Of a stretch of 64,000 nt of DNA, positions 14,636-27,835 are shown one piece after another. Both the position numbers and the translations under genes were made by a program. The notes below the pieces were generated by a model, which was not told the origin of the DNA, ran no database searches, and worked only from the letters and a program-made list of their open reading frames with translations. The stretch's first letter is position 1; the number at the start of each line of letters is the position of its first letter. Origin of the DNA: Sandaracinus amylolyticus (GTDB lineage: Bacteria; Myxococcota_A; Polyangia; Polyangiales; Sandaracinaceae); NCBI RefSeq assembly GCF_000737325.1, contig NZ_CP011125.1, positions 6,634,001-6,698,000 on the forward strand. Reading direction: 5' to 3'.

Positions 14636-15199
14636 ATGGCCGAGGAAGATCGGGTCAAGTGGGACAAGAAGTGGTCGGAGCGCGTCGACCGCCCGCGCTC
14701 CTCGCCGGGATGGGTCGCCGAGCTCGACGCCGAGATCCCGCGCGACGGTCGCGGCCTCGACGTCGCGGCGGGCGCCGGCCGCCTCGCGCTCTACATGGCG
14801 CGCCGCGGGCTCGACGTGACCGCGGTCGACATCTCGCCGGTCGGGCTCACGCTCGCGCGCGAGGCCGCGCGTGACGAGGGCGTGAAGATCACGACGTCGG
14901 TGCGCGATCTCGAGCGGCACGGCCTGCCCGAGGGCACGTGGAACGCGATCGCCTGCTTCCACTACCGCCAGCCCGATCTGTTCCTGCAATTCCGCGGCGC
15001 GCTCGCGCCCGGCGGCGTGCTGATCGCGGAGGTCGCGACGGTGGCGAGCCTCGAGCGCGACCCGTCGAAGCCCAGCGCGCGCTGGCTCGCGGAGCGCAAC
15101 GAGCTGCTGCGCGCGTGCGAGGGCCTCGACGTCGTGTACTACCGCGAGGGCTGGCTCGGCGAGCGCGCGATCGCGCGCGTCCTCGCGCGCAAGCGCTAG
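14636..15199 (+). CDS. Class I SAM-dependent methyltransferase
   Basis: A 187-residue protein with the Rossmann motif GLDVAAGAGRLALYMARRGL, the acidic residue of motif II in VTAVDISPVGL, and a later NAIACFHYRQPDLFLQF region. It resembles the TehB/UbiE-like small methyltransferases. The substrate cannot be told from the sequence. Its stop TAG overlaps the stop of the convergent MopE-like gene in the four bases CTAG (15196-15199). Confidence 0.85.
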   Translation: MAEEDRVKWDKKWSERVDRPRSSPGWVAELDAEIPRDGRGLDVAAGAGRLALYMARRGLDVTAVDISPVGLTLAREAARDEGVKITTSVRDLERHGLPEGTWNAIACFHYRQPDLFLQFRGALAPGGVLIAEVATVASLERDPSKPSARWLAERNELLRACEGLDVVYYREGWLGERAIARVLARKR

Positions 15200-16143
15200 G
15201 GACAGTCGCGCGCGCAGCTGCCGCGACAGCAGGTGCGCGCCGCGCCGACGTTGCAGCGCGTGCCGCACGCGCCGCAGTGCATCTCGTCGGTCTGCAGGTC
15301 GATCTCGCAGCCGTCGACACCCGAGAGGTTGCAGTCGTCGAAGTTCGCGGTGCACGCGGTGATCTCGCAGAAGCCCGCGATGCACTCGCCAGTCGAGTTG
15401 CGGAAGTCGCACGCGACACCGCACGCGCCGCAATTCGACTCGTCGGTGTCGAGAGCGAACCCCTCGTCGGTCATCCCGTCGCAGTCGTCGTCGCGCATGT
15501 TGCACGTCTCGGTCGTGACGACGCACGAGTCGATCGACCCCGCGTCGACCTCGACGAACGCGTCGACCTCGACGAACGCGTCGACCGGAGGCGGCGCGTC
15601 GACGGGCACCGGCGCGTCGATCGGGACGCTCGCGTCCATGCTCGCAGCCGAGGCATCGATCGGGAACGGGTCGGGCGTGCCGGTCCACTCGGTGAGCTCG
15701 GACGCCGCGACGTCGATCGCGCGACACCCGCTCTCGCCGCACGTCTGCTCGGAGCCGCACACCGCGCCCGCGCAGCGCGCGAAGAGGTCCATGCGCAGCA
15801 TGAGCGTGCGGCCCTCTTGGAACGTGAAGCGCTGGGTGCGCTGCACGAGGAGCCCGCCGCCGCGATTGCCGCTGAGGCGCACCGTGAAGAGCCCGCGGCG
15901 CCCTTCCTCCCACACCAGCGCGAGCGTGCGCGGCCAGTCGGGCTGACCCGCGCCGACGCTCGCGTTCGCCATCTGCACCTCGCCGCCAGGCGCGATCACG
16001 GTCGCGATCACGTTGTCGATCCCGAGCGGTCCGCGGAGGTCGGTGTCGACGACGACCATCACCTGCGTGCGCGGCGTCGTGTTGCTGCACGACGCGAGCG
16101 TCGCGATCAGCGCGAGCGCGAGCAGGAACGAGCGCCTCACCAT
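15196..16143 (-). CDS. MopE-like Cys-rich lipoprotein
   Basis: A 315-residue protein with a lipoprotein signal (LLALALIATLASC). After a beta-rich N-terminal domain come Cys pairs (CAGAVCGSEQTC). A low-complexity Asp/Pro/Val stretch follows with VDAFVEVD twice. Then come the putative metal-binding motif CNMRDDDCDGMTDEG, and repeated CGACG modules as in MopE-type proteins and many myxobacterial surface proteins. It likely sits on the outer membrane or surface and is stabilised by disulfides or metal. The ATG at 16143 overlaps the stop of the TPR gene by seven bases, so they are co-expressed. Confidence 0.85.
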   Translation of the reverse strand: MVRRSFLLALALIATLASCSNTTPRTQVMVVVDTDLRGPLGIDNVIATVIAPGGEVQMANASVGAGQPDWPRTLALVWEEGRRGLFTVRLSGNRGGGLLVQRTQRFTFQEGRTLMLRMDLFARCAGAVCGSEQTCGESGCRAIDVAASELTEWTGTPDPFPIDASAASMDASVPIDAPVPVDAPPPVDAFVEVDAFVEVDAGSIDSCVVTTETCNMRDDDCDGMTDEGFALDTDESNCGACGVACDFRNSTGECIAGFCEITACTANFDDCNLSGVDGCEIDLQTDEMHCGACGTRCNVGAARTCCRGSCARDCP

Positions 16144-16949
16144 CGCAGCACCCCCGGCTCGAAGTTGCCCGGGATCGGGTCTTCGACCTGGCCCTCGTCG
16201 CTGCTCACCGCGACGACCACACCGATCACCACCGCGACCGCGACGACGCCACCGCCGATCGCCGTCCAGAACCACCACTGCTCTTCCACCCGCTCGCCGC
16301 CGGTCGACGGTGTGCTCACCGCCTCCTCGGGCGCGTGCTGCATGCGCTCGAGCGTGACCACGCGATGCTCGCCCGTCGCGATCTGGATCTCGGCGCGGGC
16401 CTCGCGGCGCAGACCGTACGACGCGGTCGCGGCGTGTGCGCCCGGCGCGAGCGGCACCTCGCGCGTCGGATCGCGCAGCGTGTACTGGTCGATCGCGATG
16501 TCGGCGCCGTCGAGGTCGCGCACGTCGAGCCGCACGTAGCCGGCGCGCTCCGCGATGTGCGCGCGGAGATCACGCGCGTGCTCGCCGATGTCGGCGGGCG
16601 TGGTGGAGTCGGCGAGCACCGACTCCACGAGCACCGATGCCTCGGGGTACTCGCCCTGCTCGAAGAGCACCGACGCGAGGTTGTAGCGGATGGCCGGCGC
16701 GTCGCGGTTCGCGAGCGCTTGTCGGAAGCGGGACTCGGCCTGCTCCCAGCGCTGCTCCGCGACGAGCTGCACGCCTTCTGCGAAGAGTGTTCGCGCGAGA
16801 TCGGTGCGTCGCTCGCGCGCGTCCGCCTCGAGCACGCTGCTCTGTTGTGCGTGCGCGTGCGGTGATGCGACGTGAGATGCGACCATCAACACGGCGATCG
16901 ATGCCGCGTTCGTCCACGCGCTGGATGCGATCGGATAAGCGCTCGCCAC
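16137..16949 (-). CDS. Secreted TPR protein with PEGA-like region and C-terminal membrane anchor
   Basis: A 270-residue protein. The signal peptide ends near HAHAQQ. TPR-like helices follow (AEGVQLVAEQRWEQAESRFR, then APAIRYNLASVLFEQGEY), then a beta region (AGYVRLDVRDLDGADIAIDQ, VPLAPGAHAATASYG) like PEGA domains. A membrane segment (WFWTAIGGGVVAVAVVIGVV) and a short tail end the chain. The start is a GTG at 16949. It is the first gene of the pair with the MopE-like lipoprotein and diverges from the pseudokinase with only 32 bases between starts, so they share a promoter region. Its layout is repeated by the proteins at 27835 and 30872. Confidence 0.8.
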   Translation of the reverse strand: MASAYPIASSAWTNAASIAVLMVASHVASPHAHAQQSSVLEADARERRTDLARTLFAEGVQLVAEQRWEQAESRFRQALANRDAPAIRYNLASVLFEQGEYPEASVLVESVLADSTTPADIGEHARDLRAHIAERAGYVRLDVRDLDGADIAIDQYTLRDPTREVPLAPGAHAATASYGLRREARAEIQIATGEHRVVTLERMQHAPEEAVSTPSTGGERVEEQWWFWTAIGGGVVAVAVVIGVVVAVSSDEGQVEDPIPGNFEPGVLRW

Positions 16950-16981
16950 CTCGGCTCCACGTCTGATAGAAGTGGTCAGCA

Positions 16982-19291
16982 GTGTCGTTCAGCCGACGAT
17001 ACACGCTCGAAGTACCGCTCGGCGAGAGCGCATTGGGCAGCGTGTGGACCGCGCGAGACGCCGACGCGGATCGCAAGGTCGTCGTCATGCAGCTCGACGA
17101 AGAGGCGGGCGACGCGGCGCGCAAGTTCTTCTTCGCGAGCGCGGAGAAGCTGCGCGGCATCGATCATCCGAACGTCGTGCGCGCGTTCGACCACGGCGAG
17201 ACCGAGGAGGGCGTGCCCTACCTCGTCGTCGAGCGGCTCGACGGCGAGAGCCTCGCGATGCGCTGGGCCAGCGCGCCGCTCAAGGTGAGCGAGATCGTCG
17301 ACGTCGCCGTGGGCATCAGCGAGGGGCTCGCGGCGCTGCACGCGGCGGGCTTCGCGCACGGCGACCTCGAGCCGGGCAACGTCTTCCTCCACGGCGACGG
17401 AGCGCGCGAGGTCCCGAAGCTGATCGGGATCGCGCTCAACCGCGCGCAGATCCGCGCGAGCGACGACGCCGAGAGGACGTCGCTCGCGACGCTGCACAAC
17501 CTCTACGCGTACGCGGCGCCGGAGCAGGTTCGCGGTGAGCTCGTCGCGAGCCCGGAGGCGGACCTCTACTCGCTCGCCGCGATCGTCTACGCGGCGATGG
17601 CCGGGCGTCCGCCGCACATGGCGAAGAACACGATCGCGCTCGTCGACGCGGTGCTGCACAAGCGGCCACCGGCGCTCCAGAGCGTGAAGAAGGAGCTCGC
17701 GGCGTTCTCGCTGACGCTCGATCGCGCGATGAGCAGCGAGCCGAAGAAGCGCTACGCCGACGCGAAGCAGCTCGGGCGCGCGCTGAAGTCGTGCCTGCTA
17801 ATGGCGAAGAGCGTCGCGTCGATGGAGCTCCCGGTCGGACCGCGGAAGCCGATCGGCGATCCCGAGACGGGCGTGCTCGCAGCCGCTGCGAAGCCCACGA
17901 GCACAGCGAAGCCCACGAGCACGGCCAAGCTCGCGAGCGAGTCGAAGCTCGCGGCCGCGAGCAAGCCGGCCACGGACGCGAAGACGGCGCCGGAGACGAA
18001 GCCCACGGCCGACGCCAAGTCGGCGGCGACGAAGCCCGCGAACGATCCCGCGGCGCCCGAGGCCTCGACGCCCGCGGCCGAGACGAAGCCGGCGAACCTG
18101 CCTGCGACGAAGCTCCCGACGCCCGCGGCCGGCGCGACCAAGGTCGCGGCGGTGCCCGCGACGAAGCTCCCCGCGCCTGCCGCCAAGGCGATCGCGGCGA
18201 TGCCGGCGTCGAAGCTGCCCGCGAAGACCGAGAGCAAGCCGAGCGACGTCGACGCCGTCGAGGCTGCGCCGGACGCGCTCCCGGCGGCGACGCCTGCACG
18301 TCCGACGCTCGACGTGAGCGACGACGAGGTGCGCGACGCACGGCCGAGCGAGGTCGATCTCGTCGCGCTCGCGGAGCCCGCGCGCCCGTCGTTCGAAGAG
18401 ATCGACGTGCCCGACGAGGCCGCGCCCGCGAAGCCGCCCTCGCTGCCCGCGAAGTCGAGCCCCGGCACGACGAACGCGCCTCCGCGTCCCGAGCGCCGCT
18501 CGGCCGGCGACTCGATCGAGATGTCGAGCTCGGAGCTCGAGATCGTCGCGCCGGCGGCCGCCGCTGCGAGCACCGCCCCTCCCCCGCCGCCGTCCGCGAA
18601 GCCCAGCAGCGCACCGCTGCCGTCGGCCGCGCTCGACTCCGCGGCGTTCATGCCTTCCGCGCTGCCCGTCACGCCGTTCGATCCGACCACGCTCGACGCG
18701 CCGCCGCCGGCATCGTCGAGCGCGCGCCTTCCGTGGGCGATCGCGATCGCGCTCGGTGCGGTGCTCGTCGTGCTGATCGGGTGGATCGCGACGCAGCGCG
18801 GCGAGCAGAGCACGACTGCGACGAGCGACGTGCCCGCGAGCGCGAGCCCCGCGACGCCCACGGCGACGACGGCACCAGATCCTTCGGACTCCGAACCTTC
18901 CTCGGTCGCGCCCGACCCGCAGGCCCAGCCTGCGGCGCCCGATCCCGCGCCGCCGCCGGTCGCGACGACGGCTCCTCCGGAGGTCGCGCCGACGCCGCCG
19001 GCGCCCGAGCGCGACGTCGCGCCTCCGGCACGTCCGACGCCCCCGCCGCGCGCGACCGCCACGCGTCCTTCCGCACCGCGCGCAGCTGCGCGCACCTCGG
19101 CGCGATCGAGCGCTCCGCGTGCGACCGCAACGCGCGCGACCGCTCCGCGTCCGACCGCCACGACCGCGCCGCGCACCACGGCGCCGCGCACCACCGCATC
19201 GTCGATCCGTCCGAGCCCGAGCACGTCGTCGTCGAGCACGACGTCTCCGCCTCCGCGGCGGCCGACCGTCGTGACCGATCCCGGCTTCTGA
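16982..19291 (+). CDS. Membrane-bound Ser/Thr pseudokinase
   Basis: A 769-residue protein. Residues 7-280 have the protein-kinase fold: glycine-loop remnant GESALGSVW, helix-C Glu region AEKLRGIDHPNVV, catalytic-loop position HGDLEPGN and activation end YAAPEQ. Three key residues are lost. The ATP-binding Lys of VAIK is Met36 (RKVVVMQL), HRDLKPxN has become HGDLEPGN, and DFG reads GIA (PKLIGIALNR). It should therefore be catalytically dead. An Ala/Pro/Lys-rich linker (280-580) precedes one membrane helix (about 583-605) and a Pro/Thr/Arg-rich outer tail. The GTG at 16982 is 32 bases from the divergent TPR gene. A role as a binding scaffold or allosteric partner of a true kinase is inference. 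Confidence 0.88.
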   Translation: MSFSRRYTLEVPLGESALGSVWTARDADADRKVVVMQLDEEAGDAARKFFFASAEKLRGIDHPNVVRAFDHGETEEGVPYLVVERLDGESLAMRWASAPLKVSEIVDVAVGISEGLAALHAAGFAHGDLEPGNVFLHGDGAREVPKLIGIALNRAQIRASDDAERTSLATLHNLYAYAAPEQVRGELVASPEADLYSLAAIVYAAMAGRPPHMAKNTIALVDAVLHKRPPALQSVKKELAAFSLTLDRAMSSEPKKRYADAKQLGRALKSCLLMAKSVASMELPVGPRKPIGDPETGVLAAAAKPTSTAKPTSTAKLASESKLAAASKPATDAKTAPETKPTADAKSAATKPANDPAAPEASTPAAETKPANLPATKLPTPAAGATKVAAVPATKLPAPAAKAIAAMPASKLPAKTESKPSDVDAVEAAPDALPAATPARPTLDVSDDEVRDARPSEVDLVALAEPARPSFEEIDVPDEAAPAKPPSLPAKSSPGTTNAPPRPERRSAGDSIEMSSSELEIVAPAAAAASTAPPPPPSAKPSSAPLPSAALDSAAFMPSALPVTPFDPTTLDAPPPASSSARLPWAIAIALGAVLVVLIGWIATQRGEQSTTATSDVPASASPATPTATTAPDPSDSEPSSVAPDPQAQPAAPDPAPPPVATTAPPEVAPTPPAPERDVAPPARPTPPPRATATRPSAPRAAARTSARSSAPRATATRATAPRPTATTAPRTTAPRTTASSIRPSPSTSSSSTTSPPPRRPTVVTDPGF

Positions 19292-23326: not shown

Positions 23327-24994
23327 TCACGGAGGCGGGCTGGTGAGCGCGATCGAGGGCAGCGTCGGGATCGTGAGATCCTCGCCGCGCGGATAGACCC
23401 AGAGCACGTCGCTCCAGCGCACCGAGCCGCGACGCACCACGAGGCGCTGCATCGGGTCGAGGCTGCCCTCGCGGTTCATGAGCCGGTGATCGGTCACGAA
23501 CCCGTCGGTGAGATAGTCGGTGAGCTCGCCGACGTAGAGCACCCCGTCGTGAGGGCGGCGATCGGCGTGGCCGAGCACGCCGTTGCGCAGATACCACGAG
23601 AGATATCCGCCGGCGCGACGCGGCTCGGCGGTGTCGCTCAGCACGTCCTCGTCGCTCGAGAAGAGCCCGACGCGCCCGGCGCGACGCACGAAGTCGTCCG
23701 CGAAGCCGCCCGAGTGGCACGAGTCGAGCGCGAGCACGACGGTCCCGGCGTTCACGGTGTCGAGCGCGGCGACGACCTCGGTGTCGGTGATCGCGCCGTC
23801 GATCATCTGGATGGTCTCGTCGAGCCCGTCGAGCTCGCTCGGATCGTTCACCGCGGGCTGCACGTTGCCGTGCCCCGACCAGAACACGACGACCACGTCC
23901 TGCGGCTGCGCGCGCGACGCGATCGAGCGCAGCCCGTCGAGGAACGCAGCGCGCGTCGCCATCGCGTCGGTGAGCACGATCTGCTCGTCGACGCGCTGCA
24001 GGTGCGCGCCGCGCATCGCCTCGCCGAGCAGGCGCGCATCGTCGGCGCAGCCGTAGAGGCGACCGTGCGTGACGTACTCGGTGATGCCGGCGTAGAGGCC
24101 GAGCACACGACCGCCGCCCTCCGGGCCCGCGAACGCGCCCGCGGGCGAGACGTCGCCTGCCGCGACGATCACCGGCGGGCGCACCGACGTCGTGACCTGG
24201 AACGCGCCGCCGCTCGCGTGACCGTACGCGCTCACGAGCAGCTGGTAGATGCCGGTGACCGGCGCCGCGACGATCAGCGTGCTGTCGAGCGCGCGCTCGG
24301 TGCCGTCGGGCCCGAGATCGTTCGCGTCGTCGTTGATCCACTGCTGCCCGTGCGGGCCGCGCACCTCGGCGATCGTGTCGAACTCGCGCGAGGTCACGCG
24401 CACGCGCACGATCGATCCGCCCTGCGCCTCGAACCAGAGCGGCACCACGCCGGGCCCGAGATCGGCGTCGACGGGCGTCGCGCCCAGCGTGCCCGCGACG
24501 CGCTGGCCGAGCTGCATGCGCGCGCCGACTCCGTCGGGCGCGCGCGCGTCGACGCGCAGCTGGAACCGACCGCTCTGCCCCGGCGGCGCCGTCGTGACGA
24601 CGACGCGGTACGTGCCCGCGCTCGGCGGCACGAACTCGAGCATCGCGTCCAGCGAGTGCGGTGACACGTCGTCGTTCTCGAGCGCGAAGCCTCCCGGGCC
24701 CGCGATGCGCAGCATCGGGTCGAGCTCGCCCGCGGGGACGCGGAAGCGAACGCGCTGCGACGGATCGAGATCGATCTCGTACGCACGCTGGTGTCGCCCG
24801 GTGTCGTCGACGGGATCGCCGGGCGAGAGCGCGTCCTCGAACGATCCGAGCGCGATGCGTCGCGGTCCGACGACGACCGTGGCGTCGCCGTCCGCCACGC
24901 TGCGCGCGTTGCGCGCCGGACCGCGCGGCACCGTGGCGCCGCCGCAGCCCGCGACCATGACGAACATCAGGAGGAGCGCGATCGCCTGTCTCAT
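23327..24994 (-). CDS. Caspase-like (metacaspase family C14) lipoprotein with PPC domains
   Basis: A 555-residue protein. The signal peptide has lipobox VAGC. Two beta-rich regions resemble pre-peptidase C-terminal (PPC) domains: YEIDLDPSQRVRFRVPAGEL to SGRFQLRVD, then LWFEAQGGSIVRVRV to GIYQLLVSAYGHAS. From about residue 300 a caspase-type peptidase follows, with catalytic His in VVVFWSGHGN (about 376) and catalytic Cys in LALDSCHSGGFADD (about 425). The fold is that of clan CD; bacterial members usually cut after Arg or Lys. Placing one on a lipid anchor in the envelope is notable. The ATG at 24994 gives a clean signal peptide. Confidence 0.9.
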   Translation of the reverse strand: MRQAIALLLMFVMVAGCGGATVPRGPARNARSVADGDATVVVGPRRIALGSFEDALSPGDPVDDTGRHQRAYEIDLDPSQRVRFRVPAGELDPMLRIAGPGGFALENDDVSPHSLDAMLEFVPPSAGTYRVVVTTAPPGQSGRFQLRVDARAPDGVGARMQLGQRVAGTLGATPVDADLGPGVVPLWFEAQGGSIVRVRVTSREFDTIAEVRGPHGQQWINDDANDLGPDGTERALDSTLIVAAPVTGIYQLLVSAYGHASGGAFQVTTSVRPPVIVAAGDVSPAGAFAGPEGGGRVLGLYAGITEYVTHGRLYGCADDARLLGEAMRGAHLQRVDEQIVLTDAMATRAAFLDGLRSIASRAQPQDVVVVFWSGHGNVQPAVNDPSELDGLDETIQMIDGAITDTEVVAALDTVNAGTVVLALDSCHSGGFADDFVRRAGRVGLFSSDEDVLSDTAEPRRAGGYLSWYLRNGVLGHADRRPHDGVLYVGELTDYLTDGFVTDHRLMNREGSLDPMQRLVVRRGSVRWSDVLWVYPRGEDLTIPTLPSIALTSPPP

Positions 24995-25022
24995 CGAGAC
25001 AGTTGTACGACGCGACGCGCGC

Positions 25023-26153
25023 TCACGTCCCGCCGTCCGGCACACCGGCGTCCGCCGTTCCGCCGTCGGACGTCGTCGCGCAGAGATCCGCGAGCGGCGG
25101 TCCTTCCGCGAGCCCCGCGACGCGCACGCGCGTGCCGGTGAAGCCGACGCCGAGGCTGATCGCGTCGCACACCACGCCCGGCCCGCCCGAGCCCGGCGTC
25201 GAGCGCACGTCCGCGATGCGATCGAGCTGCGAGTTGAGCAGGTCGTACTCGGTCTCGCCCTCGCACACGCCGATGTTCCGCGCGGTGACGAGCAGATCGT
25301 TGAGCGACCATCGACCCGCGACGCGCACGTCCTCGAGCATCGTGCCGTCGGCGGAGATGCGGCCCGTCGCCTGCGCGCCGGTGAGCCGCACGAGCACGCC
25401 GTACGCGTCGGCCGGGAAGATGATGTCGACGCGATCGGGCAGGCGCACGACGAGCACGCCGTCGGCGACGTACGCGTTGTCGTCGCGGATCAGCGGGCGT
25501 CCGAGATCGTCCATGAGGAACGCGTCGTCGCGCACCCAGAACCAGTCGCGCCCGTCCCACACCGGGCGCGAGCTCGCGGGATCGGCGGGCACCGAGGGAG
25601 GCTCGTCCGACGCGTCGCCGGGCGCGCCGAACACCGCCTGCATGATCGCCGCGTCGACGCGCGAATCGTTGGGCTCGCCGTTCCAACCGCGCAGCCGGAT
25701 GATCGGGAGCCCCTGGCCCTTCTCCTGCGCCTCTTGCGCCTCCGACTCGAGATCGGGCGTGGTCGCGTCGACCAGCGGGAAGAAGCGGAACCCGAACACG
25801 TTGTCGACGCCGCCCGCGCCATCGACCGGCGGGTTGCGCTCGGCGGGCGGAACACACTCGCTCATCAGATCGGGCTGCTCGGTGCAGAACCCGTCGAGAT
25901 CGTAGCCGTACGCCGGCCAGTCGTTGCCCTGCTCCATGACGACCATGCGCAGGCCGAACGCGACCTCGGGGCCGTCGCCGTCCGCCACGTCGGGGCGCGT
26001 CGGGGGCTGCGTCCGCTGCTCGCACGCGCTGCCCCCGCCGGCGTCGACACGGTCGAGCAGAGCGGGGTCGTACACGCGGCAACCGGACGCGAGCGGAGCG
26101 ATCGCGATCACGCATGCGAGCCACGTGGTGGTCGCTCGGATGTCGAGATTCAT
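25023..26153 (-). CDS. Lipoprotein of unknown function
   Basis: A 376-residue protein with a lipoprotein signal (LACVIAIAPLASGC). Cys residues are scattered (ACEQRTQPPTRP, CTEQPDLMSECVPP, NIGVCEGETEY). The body is rich in Asp, Gly and Trp/Phe, and includes DDAFLMDDLGRPLIRDDN and DGVLVVRLPDRVDIIFPAD. It ends with a Gly/Asp/Ala-rich tail (TSDGGTADAGVPDGGT). I recognise no family. The layout resembles other myxobacterial surface lipoproteins. It lies between the kinase gene and the caspase-like gene, all on the minus strand. Confidence 0.8.
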   Translation of the reverse strand: MNLDIRATTTWLACVIAIAPLASGCRVYDPALLDRVDAGGGSACEQRTQPPTRPDVADGDGPEVAFGLRMVVMEQGNDWPAYGYDLDGFCTEQPDLMSECVPPAERNPPVDGAGGVDNVFGFRFFPLVDATTPDLESEAQEAQEKGQGLPIIRLRGWNGEPNDSRVDAAIMQAVFGAPGDASDEPPSVPADPASSRPVWDGRDWFWVRDDAFLMDDLGRPLIRDDNAYVADGVLVVRLPDRVDIIFPADAYGVLVRLTGAQATGRISADGTMLEDVRVAGRWSLNDLLVTARNIGVCEGETEYDLLNSQLDRIADVRSTPGSGGPGVVCDAISLGVGFTGTRVRVAGLAEGPPLADLCATTSDGGTADAGVPDGGT

Positions 26154-26209: not shown

Positions 26210-27835
26210 TCAGCGCCGGTAGGGGTTCACGATCAGATCGCCATCGTCCTCGTCGTCGCTCGCCGCGGCGGCGCTCGCCTCCGCCTCCGCGCGACGACGG
26301 CGACGCGCCTCGCGCGCCGACTCGCTCTCGCGGCGCTCCGGCGACGCCGCGGTCTCGTCGGAGCGCGCGGGCTCGGTGGCCTCGGCGCGCTCGGGCGTCC
26401 CGACCGGCTCGGCCGACGGCGCCGCGGTCGCCGCGGCTTCGCTCGGCGCGGGCACCGCCTCGGGCGTGCTCGGCTCGGCGCTCGTCGAGCTCACCATCGC
26501 GGGCGGCGCCGCGATCGCCGGCGCGGTCGTCGCGCTCGGCGCGCTGGCCGCGATGCCGAGCGCGAACGCCGCGCCGACGCCGCCGATCACCAGCAGCGCG
26601 AGCACCGCGACGATCCACGCCTTCGATCGCGATCGCCGCGGCGCAGGCTGCTCGCCGGACACCTCGCTCGCGAGCGTCGACGGCTTGGCGCCGACGGTCA
26701 TCTCGCTCGTGTCCAGCACGATCGGGCGCACCGCGCTCGGCGTGAGCGACGCGGGGCGACTGCTGCTCGGCTGGCTCGGCTGCGATCCACCAGGGCCCGG
26801 CAGCGGGAGCAGCCCGCCGCGCATCTCGGCGCGGCCGAGCGTGTCGGTCGCCGCGCGGATTCGCGTGTTCTGGGCATCGATCTTCGGGCCGAGCAGCTCG
26901 CGCACGAGACGCCCCACCGCGCGCGGGCTCGCGACGCCGCCGCACGCCGGCGCCGCGTCCTCGATCGCCTGCACGAACTCCTCGGCGGTCTGGTAACGCG
27001 CCTCGGGATCGCGCTCGAGCGCGCACGCGCAGATCGCGTCGAACGCCGCGGCCTCGGGCACGTAGGTCGAGGGCGGGACGATCGGCTCGTTGAGCAGGCG
27101 ATTGAGCAGCTCGCCGTTGTTGTCGGCGCGGAAGAGCCTCCGCCCGGTCAAGGTCTCCCACAGCACGATGCCCATGCTGAAGAGGTCGCTGCGCTGATCG
27201 GCGCGCCCGCTCGAGGCCTGCTCGGGCGCCATGTACGAGAGCTTGCCCTTGAACTGGCCGTCGCGCGTCGAGCTGAGCCGCACCTCGGCCTTCGCGACGC
27301 CGAAGTCGGTGATGCGCGCGACTCCGTCGCTCCCGATCAGCACGTTGTGCGGCGACACGTCGCGATGGACGATCCCGAGCGCGAGCCCGTCGGGATCGGT
27401 GAGCGTGTGCGCGGCGCCGAGGCCCTCGAGCGCGTCGATCACCAGGCGCGCCGCGATCGACGGCGGGATCGGCGTGTGCGCGCGCGCGGCCTCGCGGAGC
27501 AGCGCGCCGAGGTGATCGCCCTCGATGTACTCCATCACGAGGAAGTAGCCGTCGCCCTCGGTGTCGGAGATGTCGAGCGTCGGCACGACGTTCGGATGAC
27601 GGATGCGCGCGGCGAGGCGCGCCTCGTCGAGGAACATCGAGATGAACTCTTCGTCGTGCGCGAGGTGCGGGTGCAGCACCTTGATCGCGACGAGCCGCTC
27701 GAAGCCCGCGACGCCCTGCGCACGCGCGACGTAGACCGTCGCCATGCCGCCCGACGCGAGCTGGACGAGCACTTCGTAGCGACCGAGACGCCGGCCACTC
27801 AGATCGCGCATCAGCGAGGCGGGCGCAGCCGTCAT
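26210..27835 (-). CDS. Membrane-anchored Ser/Thr protein kinase (Hanks type)
   Basis: A 541-residue kinase with all catalytic motifs: ATP loop QLASGGMATVYVA, Lys52 in RLVAIKVLHP, helix-C Glu in FLDEARLAARIRHPN, catalytic loop IVHRDVSPHN (Asp159), DFG at 177-179 and YMAPEQ. A linker with Ser/Pro stretches leads to one membrane segment (AWIVAVLALLVIGGVGAAFA, about 397-420). An Ala/Pro/Glu-rich outer region ends in a basic and then an acidic tail. It overlaps the TPR gene by one base (TGATG), so that protein is a likely partner or regulator. This is the only catalytically intact Ser/Thr kinase in the window. Confidence 0.95.
   Translation of the reverse strand: MTAAPASLMRDLSGRRLGRYEVLVQLASGGMATVYVARAQGVAGFERLVAIKVLHPHLAHDEEFISMFLDEARLAARIRHPNVVPTLDISDTEGDGYFLVMEYIEGDHLGALLREAARAHTPIPPSIAARLVIDALEGLGAAHTLTDPDGLALGIVHRDVSPHNVLIGSDGVARITDFGVAKAEVRLSSTRDGQFKGKLSYMAPEQASSGRADQRSDLFSMGIVLWETLTGRRLFRADNNGELLNRLLNEPIVPPSTYVPEAAAFDAICACALERDPEARYQTAEEFVQAIEDAAPACGGVASPRAVGRLVRELLGPKIDAQNTRIRAATDTLGRAEMRGGLLPLPGPGGSQPSQPSSSRPASLTPSAVRPIVLDTSEMTVGAKPSTLASEVSGEQPAPRRSRSKAWIVAVLALLVIGGVGAAFALGIAASAPSATTAPAIAAPPAMVSSTSAEPSTPEAVPAPSEAAATAAPSAEPVGTPERAEATEPARSDETAASPERRESESAREARRRRRAEAEASAAAASDDEDDGDLIVNPYRR

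Follow-up and report, generated by a model that had tools for sequence, protein, structure and literature searches.

A conserved Hanks-type pseudokinase of Sandaracinus amylolyticus as the probable inner-membrane linker of an envelope-spanning sensor

Results

The stretch of DNA that we analysed (the window, 64,000 nucleotides of the Sandaracinus amylolyticus genome, G000) carries at 16982..19291, on the plus strand, a gene for a single-pass membrane Hanks-type pseudokinase, a single frame of 769 amino acids with a GTG start. Its product opens with a pseudokinase domain (residues 5-271, 16994..17794) delimited by Pfam, sequence search and a structure model, and continues with an Ala/Pro/Lys-rich cytoplasmic linker that cannot be aligned across genera (17795..18727), a membrane helix (residues 583-605, 18728..18796, Kyte-Doolittle 2.56), a fast-evolving Pro/Thr/Ala-rich outer region (18797..19267) and a conserved C-terminal tail, VVTDPGF (19268..19288), all on the plus strand. 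An earlier note, made from the letters of this DNA alone, had described a membrane Ser/Thr pseudokinase with linker, membrane helix and outer tail in place, and this description is borne out: Pfam Pkinase matches residues 7-236 (E=2.6e-21, 76.7 bits against a gathering threshold of 31.7), the helix and the outer region are present, and the beta3 Lys and the DFG Asp are gone. PknB and PknA are the closest solved sequences to the domain (E about 1e-21 by sequence search). The model of the domain is a kinase fold (pLDDT 80, pTM 0.83) with the bilobal order of elements complete and low confidence confined to the activation loop (153-172); matches from a scan of contigs, mostly canonical Rhodobacteraceae kinases, served solely to deepen its alignment. 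Foldseek places this model nearest to PknA/PknB-type kinases, with a TM-score of 0.82 to PknA, so that the Pfam score and the structure comparison both assign the product to the Hanks-type fold. PADLOC matches (PD-T4-6 and similar) raised a defence-system reading, which we rejected, these being generic kinase-domain matches.

The motifs read VVVMQL (beta3), HGDLEPGN, KLI-GIA-LNR and AAPEQ, in agreement with the earlier readings. Met36 occupies the position of the Lys of VAIK (17087..17089), HGDLEPGN replaces HRDLKPxN (residues 126-133, 17357..17380), GIA replaces DFG, whose Asp is here Gly149 (17426..17434), and the APE-like motif is kept, about 30 residues from GIA, that is, with an activation loop of full length. 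The claim that all three catalytic sites are changed has nonetheless to be narrowed: all three motifs are altered, but the catalytic Asp128 and the metal-ligand Asn133 are kept, so that two residues of the Lys/Asp/Asp triad are lost and not three. By the criteria for an active Hanks kinase, the protein thus has the HRD Asp and the loop Asn and lacks the beta3 Lys and the DFG Asp, and it falls within the sequence definition of a pseudokinase (at least one of the three motifs lost, with conservation among orthologues). Among 79 other kinases sampled in the S. amylolyticus genome, 78 keep the Lys, the HRD Asp and the DFG Asp, and in none are both the Lys and the DFG Asp lost; this census was drawn from the 150 best-scoring kinases and favours those that resemble the query, and pseudokinases of greater divergence may thus be present in the genome. 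Another kinase of the same genome (L253, G000:C1:7313018-7313830) reads HGGVKSENV, having lost the catalytic Asp and kept the Lys and the DFG-position Asp.

Searches of 76 relatives, and then of 183 genomes from the order and 377 from the phylum, gave eight pseudokinase orthologues, the window gene included: seven in Sandaracinaceae (G000, with G001 and G002 of the same genus and G003, G004, G005 and G008 of the same family) and one in another family (G016). The beta3 Lys and the DFG Asp are absent from all eight. The beta3 residue is Met, Met, Leu, Ala, Ala, Val, Val or Ile and never Lys; the DFG Asp position holds Gly, except for Ser in G016, and never Asp, with GFG at the DFG position in G004 and G008. 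Their catalytic loop is HGD, then Leu/Ile/Val, an acidic residue or Ser in place of the HRD-loop Lys, and then Pro. With the Asp of HGD present in 8/8 and the loop Asn in all except G016, and ATP binding being possible without the beta3 Lys (as in DYD, DLHK and POMK; PMC12599244), the retained Asp128 and Asn133 might still allow nucleotide binding or phosphate transfer and make of the protein a conditional switch instead of a pure scaffold. We regard this as unlikely, for the metal-binding DFG Asp is lost throughout, the alphaC Glu is unconserved, the HRD-loop Lys and the second Gly of the Gly-loop are both substituted, and a compensating conserved Lys/Arg cluster was not found among the eight orthologues.

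In a kinase-domain tree the eight orthologues form a single clade with support of 100/100; the tree also took in 45 canonical kinases of S. amylolyticus and the canonical kinases that share the tail (see below), all of which fall outside this clade. The orthologues group together in a second, smaller tree as well. Between G000 and G002, the kinase domain has a dN/dS of 0.146, which rises to 0.26 in the linker and 0.38 in the outer region, and on this measure the pseudokinase domain is evolving under purifying selection. Since two essential residues are gone, the gene could be thought a decaying former kinase, and orthologues with intact Lys and DFG, named in the earlier note as the mark of decay, were accordingly looked for; there are none among the eight. 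Because the losses are identical in 8/8 orthologues, the frames are intact, the tail and neighbours are conserved and dN/dS in the domain is as low as it is, decay is hardly credible, and we consider it ruled out.

Divergent from the pseudokinase gene, with a gap of 32 bases between start codons (16950..16981), lies a gene for a secreted TPR protein of 270 amino acids with a C-terminal membrane helix (16137..16949, minus strand). The earlier note had placed a divergent, secreted TPR-like neighbour at this distance, with which the start codons and the Pfam TPR_19 match (E=2.3e-7) agree. It combines a signal peptide and TPR repeats with the membrane helix (16203..16271, minus strand) and a conserved C-terminal tail, here GNFEPGVLRW (16140..16169, minus strand), of the form G[ND][FY]xP[GA]V[LI]x[WF]; predicted topology places this tail in the cytoplasm, and a single-sequence model of the protein is of too low a quality for use (pLDDT 53). 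Of its description as TPR/PEGA-like, the TPR part stands, whereas no PEGA domain was detected by Pfam. We also considered and rejected a carboxylate clamp like that of Hsp-binding TPRs, since some of the clamp residues are missing (in TPR1 the positions are taken by Phe56/Val60). The next gene on the minus strand (15196..16143), which begins with ATG and shares 7 bases with the end of the TPR gene, encodes a Cys-rich lipoprotein with the lipobox MVRRSFLLALALIATLASC and a DDDCDGxTDE motif; it had been called a MopE-like lipoprotein, and while the lipobox supports the second word, the MopE motif matches only below threshold (17.6 bits against a cut-off of 27).

Checked in related genomes, the divergent TPR and lipoprotein genes are retained in the same order in five relatives (G002, G004, G005, G008 and G016), and because these include a member of another family, we take the coupling of the pseudokinase to the two genes as real. 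In G003 the pseudokinase and its tail are present, hslV/hslU-like genes adjoin them and the TPR and lipoprotein genes are absent there; in G001 the pseudokinase adjoins an FHA/transglutaminase-like frame, and the TPR match is short and fragmentary.

The end of the protein is as conserved as the region before it is variable: [VI][TS]DPGF closes 8/8 orthologues (read from six complete frames, with the ends in G004 and G005 taken from other contigs that apparently continue the gene), the preceding hundred or more residues being unalignable, and its codons show conservation with synonymous changes. In the 10.3 Mb of the S. amylolyticus genome, the codon pattern for DPGF followed by a stop occurs three times and a control pattern once, and all three occurrences end membrane Hanks kinases that lie beside a TPR gene and a Cys-rich lipoprotein gene. 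A single genome-wide match had suggested a tail exclusive to the pseudokinase; this was refuted by VTDPGF on canonical kinases of other families. A literature search found no paper linking a DPGF tail to kinases, nor any on kinase-TPR pairs in myxobacteria.

We define the module as a membrane kinase ending in DPGF, an adjacent secreted TPR protein ending in G[ND]xxPxx[LIV]x[WF] and an adjacent Cys-rich lipoprotein, and the window locus has all three. The two paralogous modules of S. amylolyticus, at about 5.68 and 7.17 Mb, carry kinases with LALKVI, HQDVSPHN and LLDFGVA, in which the Lys, the Asp, the Asn and DFG are kept and only the HRD Arg differs, and the TPR products of all three modules end in G[ND]xxPGV[LI]xW. 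Their lipoproteins (L310:2118-4481, minus strand, at 7.17 Mb; L311:2482-4917, minus strand, at 5.68 Mb) have the same N-terminal domain as the window lipoprotein and end not in the MopE-like motif but in CGPCH (CxxCH), after Cys-rich Dicty_CTDC (Pfam) repeats. Judged from these sequences, which share one end and differ at the other, the module seems able to exchange its input end. The common kinase tail, TPR tail and lipoprotein domain also raise the idea that the pseudokinase controls the intact paralogues, whether by forming dimers with them or through competition for TPR and lipoprotein partners in common, and back-to-back dimers are known in canonical bacterial kinases and in MviN domains (PMC12599244). 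Against it, the tree puts these kinase domains into separate clades, every module has its own TPR protein and lipoprotein, and a tail search of G004 gave no such pair of paralogues; we hold such control to be quite improbable.

Across ten genomes of the family we counted 23 true DPGF-stops, comprising 18 kinases (two of them inferred across a contig break), two frames cut by contig ends and three non-kinases; 15 of the 23 adjoin a TPR gene, two contig-split orthologues being counted in. Genus g6 has a canonical kinase (VVIKVV, HRDVSPHN, LLDFGVAK) that ends in VIVTDPGF and is followed by TPR and lipoprotein genes. At the g6 loci (L203 in G007, L204 in G009) the place of the pseudokinase is taken by a tailed canonical kinase from a different lineage, a natural swap of kinase domains on the same partners. 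Family f12 has canonical kinases ending in VTDPGF; of six that could be read completely, two have a TPR/lipoprotein pair nearby. Counting the pseudokinases, the tailed kinases make up three or more distinct kinase lineages in the smaller tree; direct descent of the pseudokinase from the tailed canonical kinases is unsupported, their domains lying in different clades. A further tailed kinase (L319, G008:C105) has its Lys and DFG intact, reads HGDLKPENV and has TPR and lipoprotein genes downstream; with the HRD Arg already Gly, it looks from its motifs like an intermediate state, though it belongs to another clade.

The TPR end motif is found in 14/14 TPR proteins listed as module partners, that of G014 being an inferred partner whose kinase is on another contig, and in two of eight others. 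Among 23 TPR homologues in S. amylolyticus, eight have a kinase within 2 kb, against 1.3 expected, and none of 5000 random placements gave a number as high. Periplasmic PDZ proteins typically bind short C-terminal motifs with a final Phe, and the DPGF tail could thus be read by a general factor (a periplasmic PDZ protease, or an export or sorting factor) instead of docking on the TPR protein, the more so as several f12 genomes have tailed kinases without an adjacent TPR gene. Such a signal ought to occur on proteins of other kinds as well, yet in the S. amylolyticus genome it is found only on kinases; besides, most family DPGF-stops adjoin a TPR gene and the TPR partners bear a co-occurring tail of their own. 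We therefore see a general factor as somewhat unlikely, and docking on the TPR protein is the reading that we carry forward. At two loci (L312, G016:C263; L313, G003:C473) a TPR gene whose product bears the end motif is paired with a lipoprotein gene and no DPGF kinase adjoins them; these pairs are possible unlinked partners.

Discussion

The same tail and the same neighbours sit on catalytically intact kinases elsewhere, and the window gene is therefore the catalytically dead member of an apparently undescribed module of DPGF-tailed kinase, TPR protein and lipoprotein. Its relatives share the catalytic loss, the seven-residue tail and, mostly, the neighbours, on which grounds the pseudokinase probably acts without enzymatic activity, as a linker within an envelope-spanning sensor. 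We lean, with some reserve, toward the fuller statement that this conserved, catalytically dead Hanks kinase would be the inner-membrane linker of that sensor. The incomplete carboxylate clamp of the TPR protein and the G003 and G001 loci speak against it. Our findings support the interpretation of the earlier note, in which a probable signalling scaffold takes part in a putative envelope-spanning complex. In the mechanism that we propose, the secreted TPR protein and the lipoprotein, whose repeats are metal-binding-like, would form the envelope part and sense the outside; the periplasmic DPGF carboxy-terminus of the kinase would dock on this assembly, and the carboxy-tail of the TPR protein, by its predicted topology, would lie close to the kinase domain on the other side of the membrane. 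From the cytoplasm, the pseudokinase domain could then relay whether the tail is docked or not, and do so by engaging a partner and not by phosphorylation. The stimulus may be a cation or redox input, as the lipoprotein repeats suggest.

The kinase domain varies and the outer interface (tail, TPR protein and lipoprotein) is constant, and an envelope-spanning sensor is therefore the simplest reading of the module. More tentatively, with chances that we put at slightly short of even, the order may possess a hitherto undescribed modular envelope sensor in which varied kinase domains are attached to a fixed transmembrane interface and one lineage has become permanently non-catalytic. If so, the output of the sensor would be independent of phosphorylation. 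S. amylolyticus and its relatives each have well over a hundred Hanks kinases, membrane or soluble, and an invariant outer tail with one TPR protein and one lipoprotein would give a subset of them a concrete input pathway; the natural occurrence of one tail on both dead and intact kinases would, moreover, allow scaffold and catalytic function to be cleanly told apart. The conserved DPGF tail and the recurrence of the module with catalytically intact kinases are what is new here beyond the earlier note.

Bacterial Ser/Thr pseudokinases are largely unexplored by experiment; a survey of them covers the ActPs1-3, GLW, CP1, DYD and DLHK families (PMC12599244), and a word search of that survey found no mention of myxobacteria. 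MviN (Rv3910, an ActPs3 protein of Mycobacterium) is, like the window protein, a Hanks-fold pseudokinase tied to the membrane and the envelope, and it acts as a scaffold; it differs in its VALT and LSIDHPSR motifs, in a deletion of the activation loop and in binding FhaA (PMC12599244), whereas the window protein has HGDxEPGN, a full-length loop and TPR and lipoprotein neighbours, and so lacks the features of ActPs3. EssB/YukC of type VII secretion is likewise single-pass, with a cytoplasmic pseudokinase domain, and is an assembly hub (PMC12599244), but secretion genes are absent from the window locus, where the neighbours are a TPR protein and a lipoprotein, and motifs and taxa are other. MviN and EssB/YukC work in the manner that we propose for the window protein, and such kinship to it as is apparent lies in the fold. 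The DLHK proteins also keep the HRD Asp and the loop Asn and have lost the Lys and the DFG Asp, with GFG in P. aeruginosa; they are without membrane regions and often have helicase-type domains (PMC12599244), whereas the window protein has its membrane helix and no helicase-type Pfam domain. GLW pseudokinases have GLW for HRD and a poly-Leu beta3 (PMC12599244), in place of the HGD found in all our orthologues. The motif and architecture features described for ActPs3, GLW and DLHK set the window pseudokinase apart from these three, and on such features it may yet prove to belong to a published family. EcpK, a tyrosine pseudokinase of Myxococcus xanthus, is proposed to bind a membrane partner rather than to phosphorylate (PMC12004946), but its bacterial tyrosine kinase fold is unrelated to Hanks kinases. 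The PknB/PASTA kinases share with the window protein the order of cytoplasmic Hanks domain, linker, one membrane helix and outer region, and differ in being catalytic and in having PASTA repeats outside; against the NCBIfam model of Stk1/PknB PASTA kinases (NF033483), the window protein scores 132.8 bits, well below the cut-off of 450.

Two further genes of the window may be mentioned. Some 8 kb away from the pseudokinase there is another Hanks kinase domain (26957-27781, minus strand; match G000:C1:6660957-6661781), which, according to the census, keeps its catalytic residues. At 23327-25045 on the minus strand there is a predicted secreted protein with N-terminal beta domains and a caspase-like signature, SGHG...DSCHSGG.
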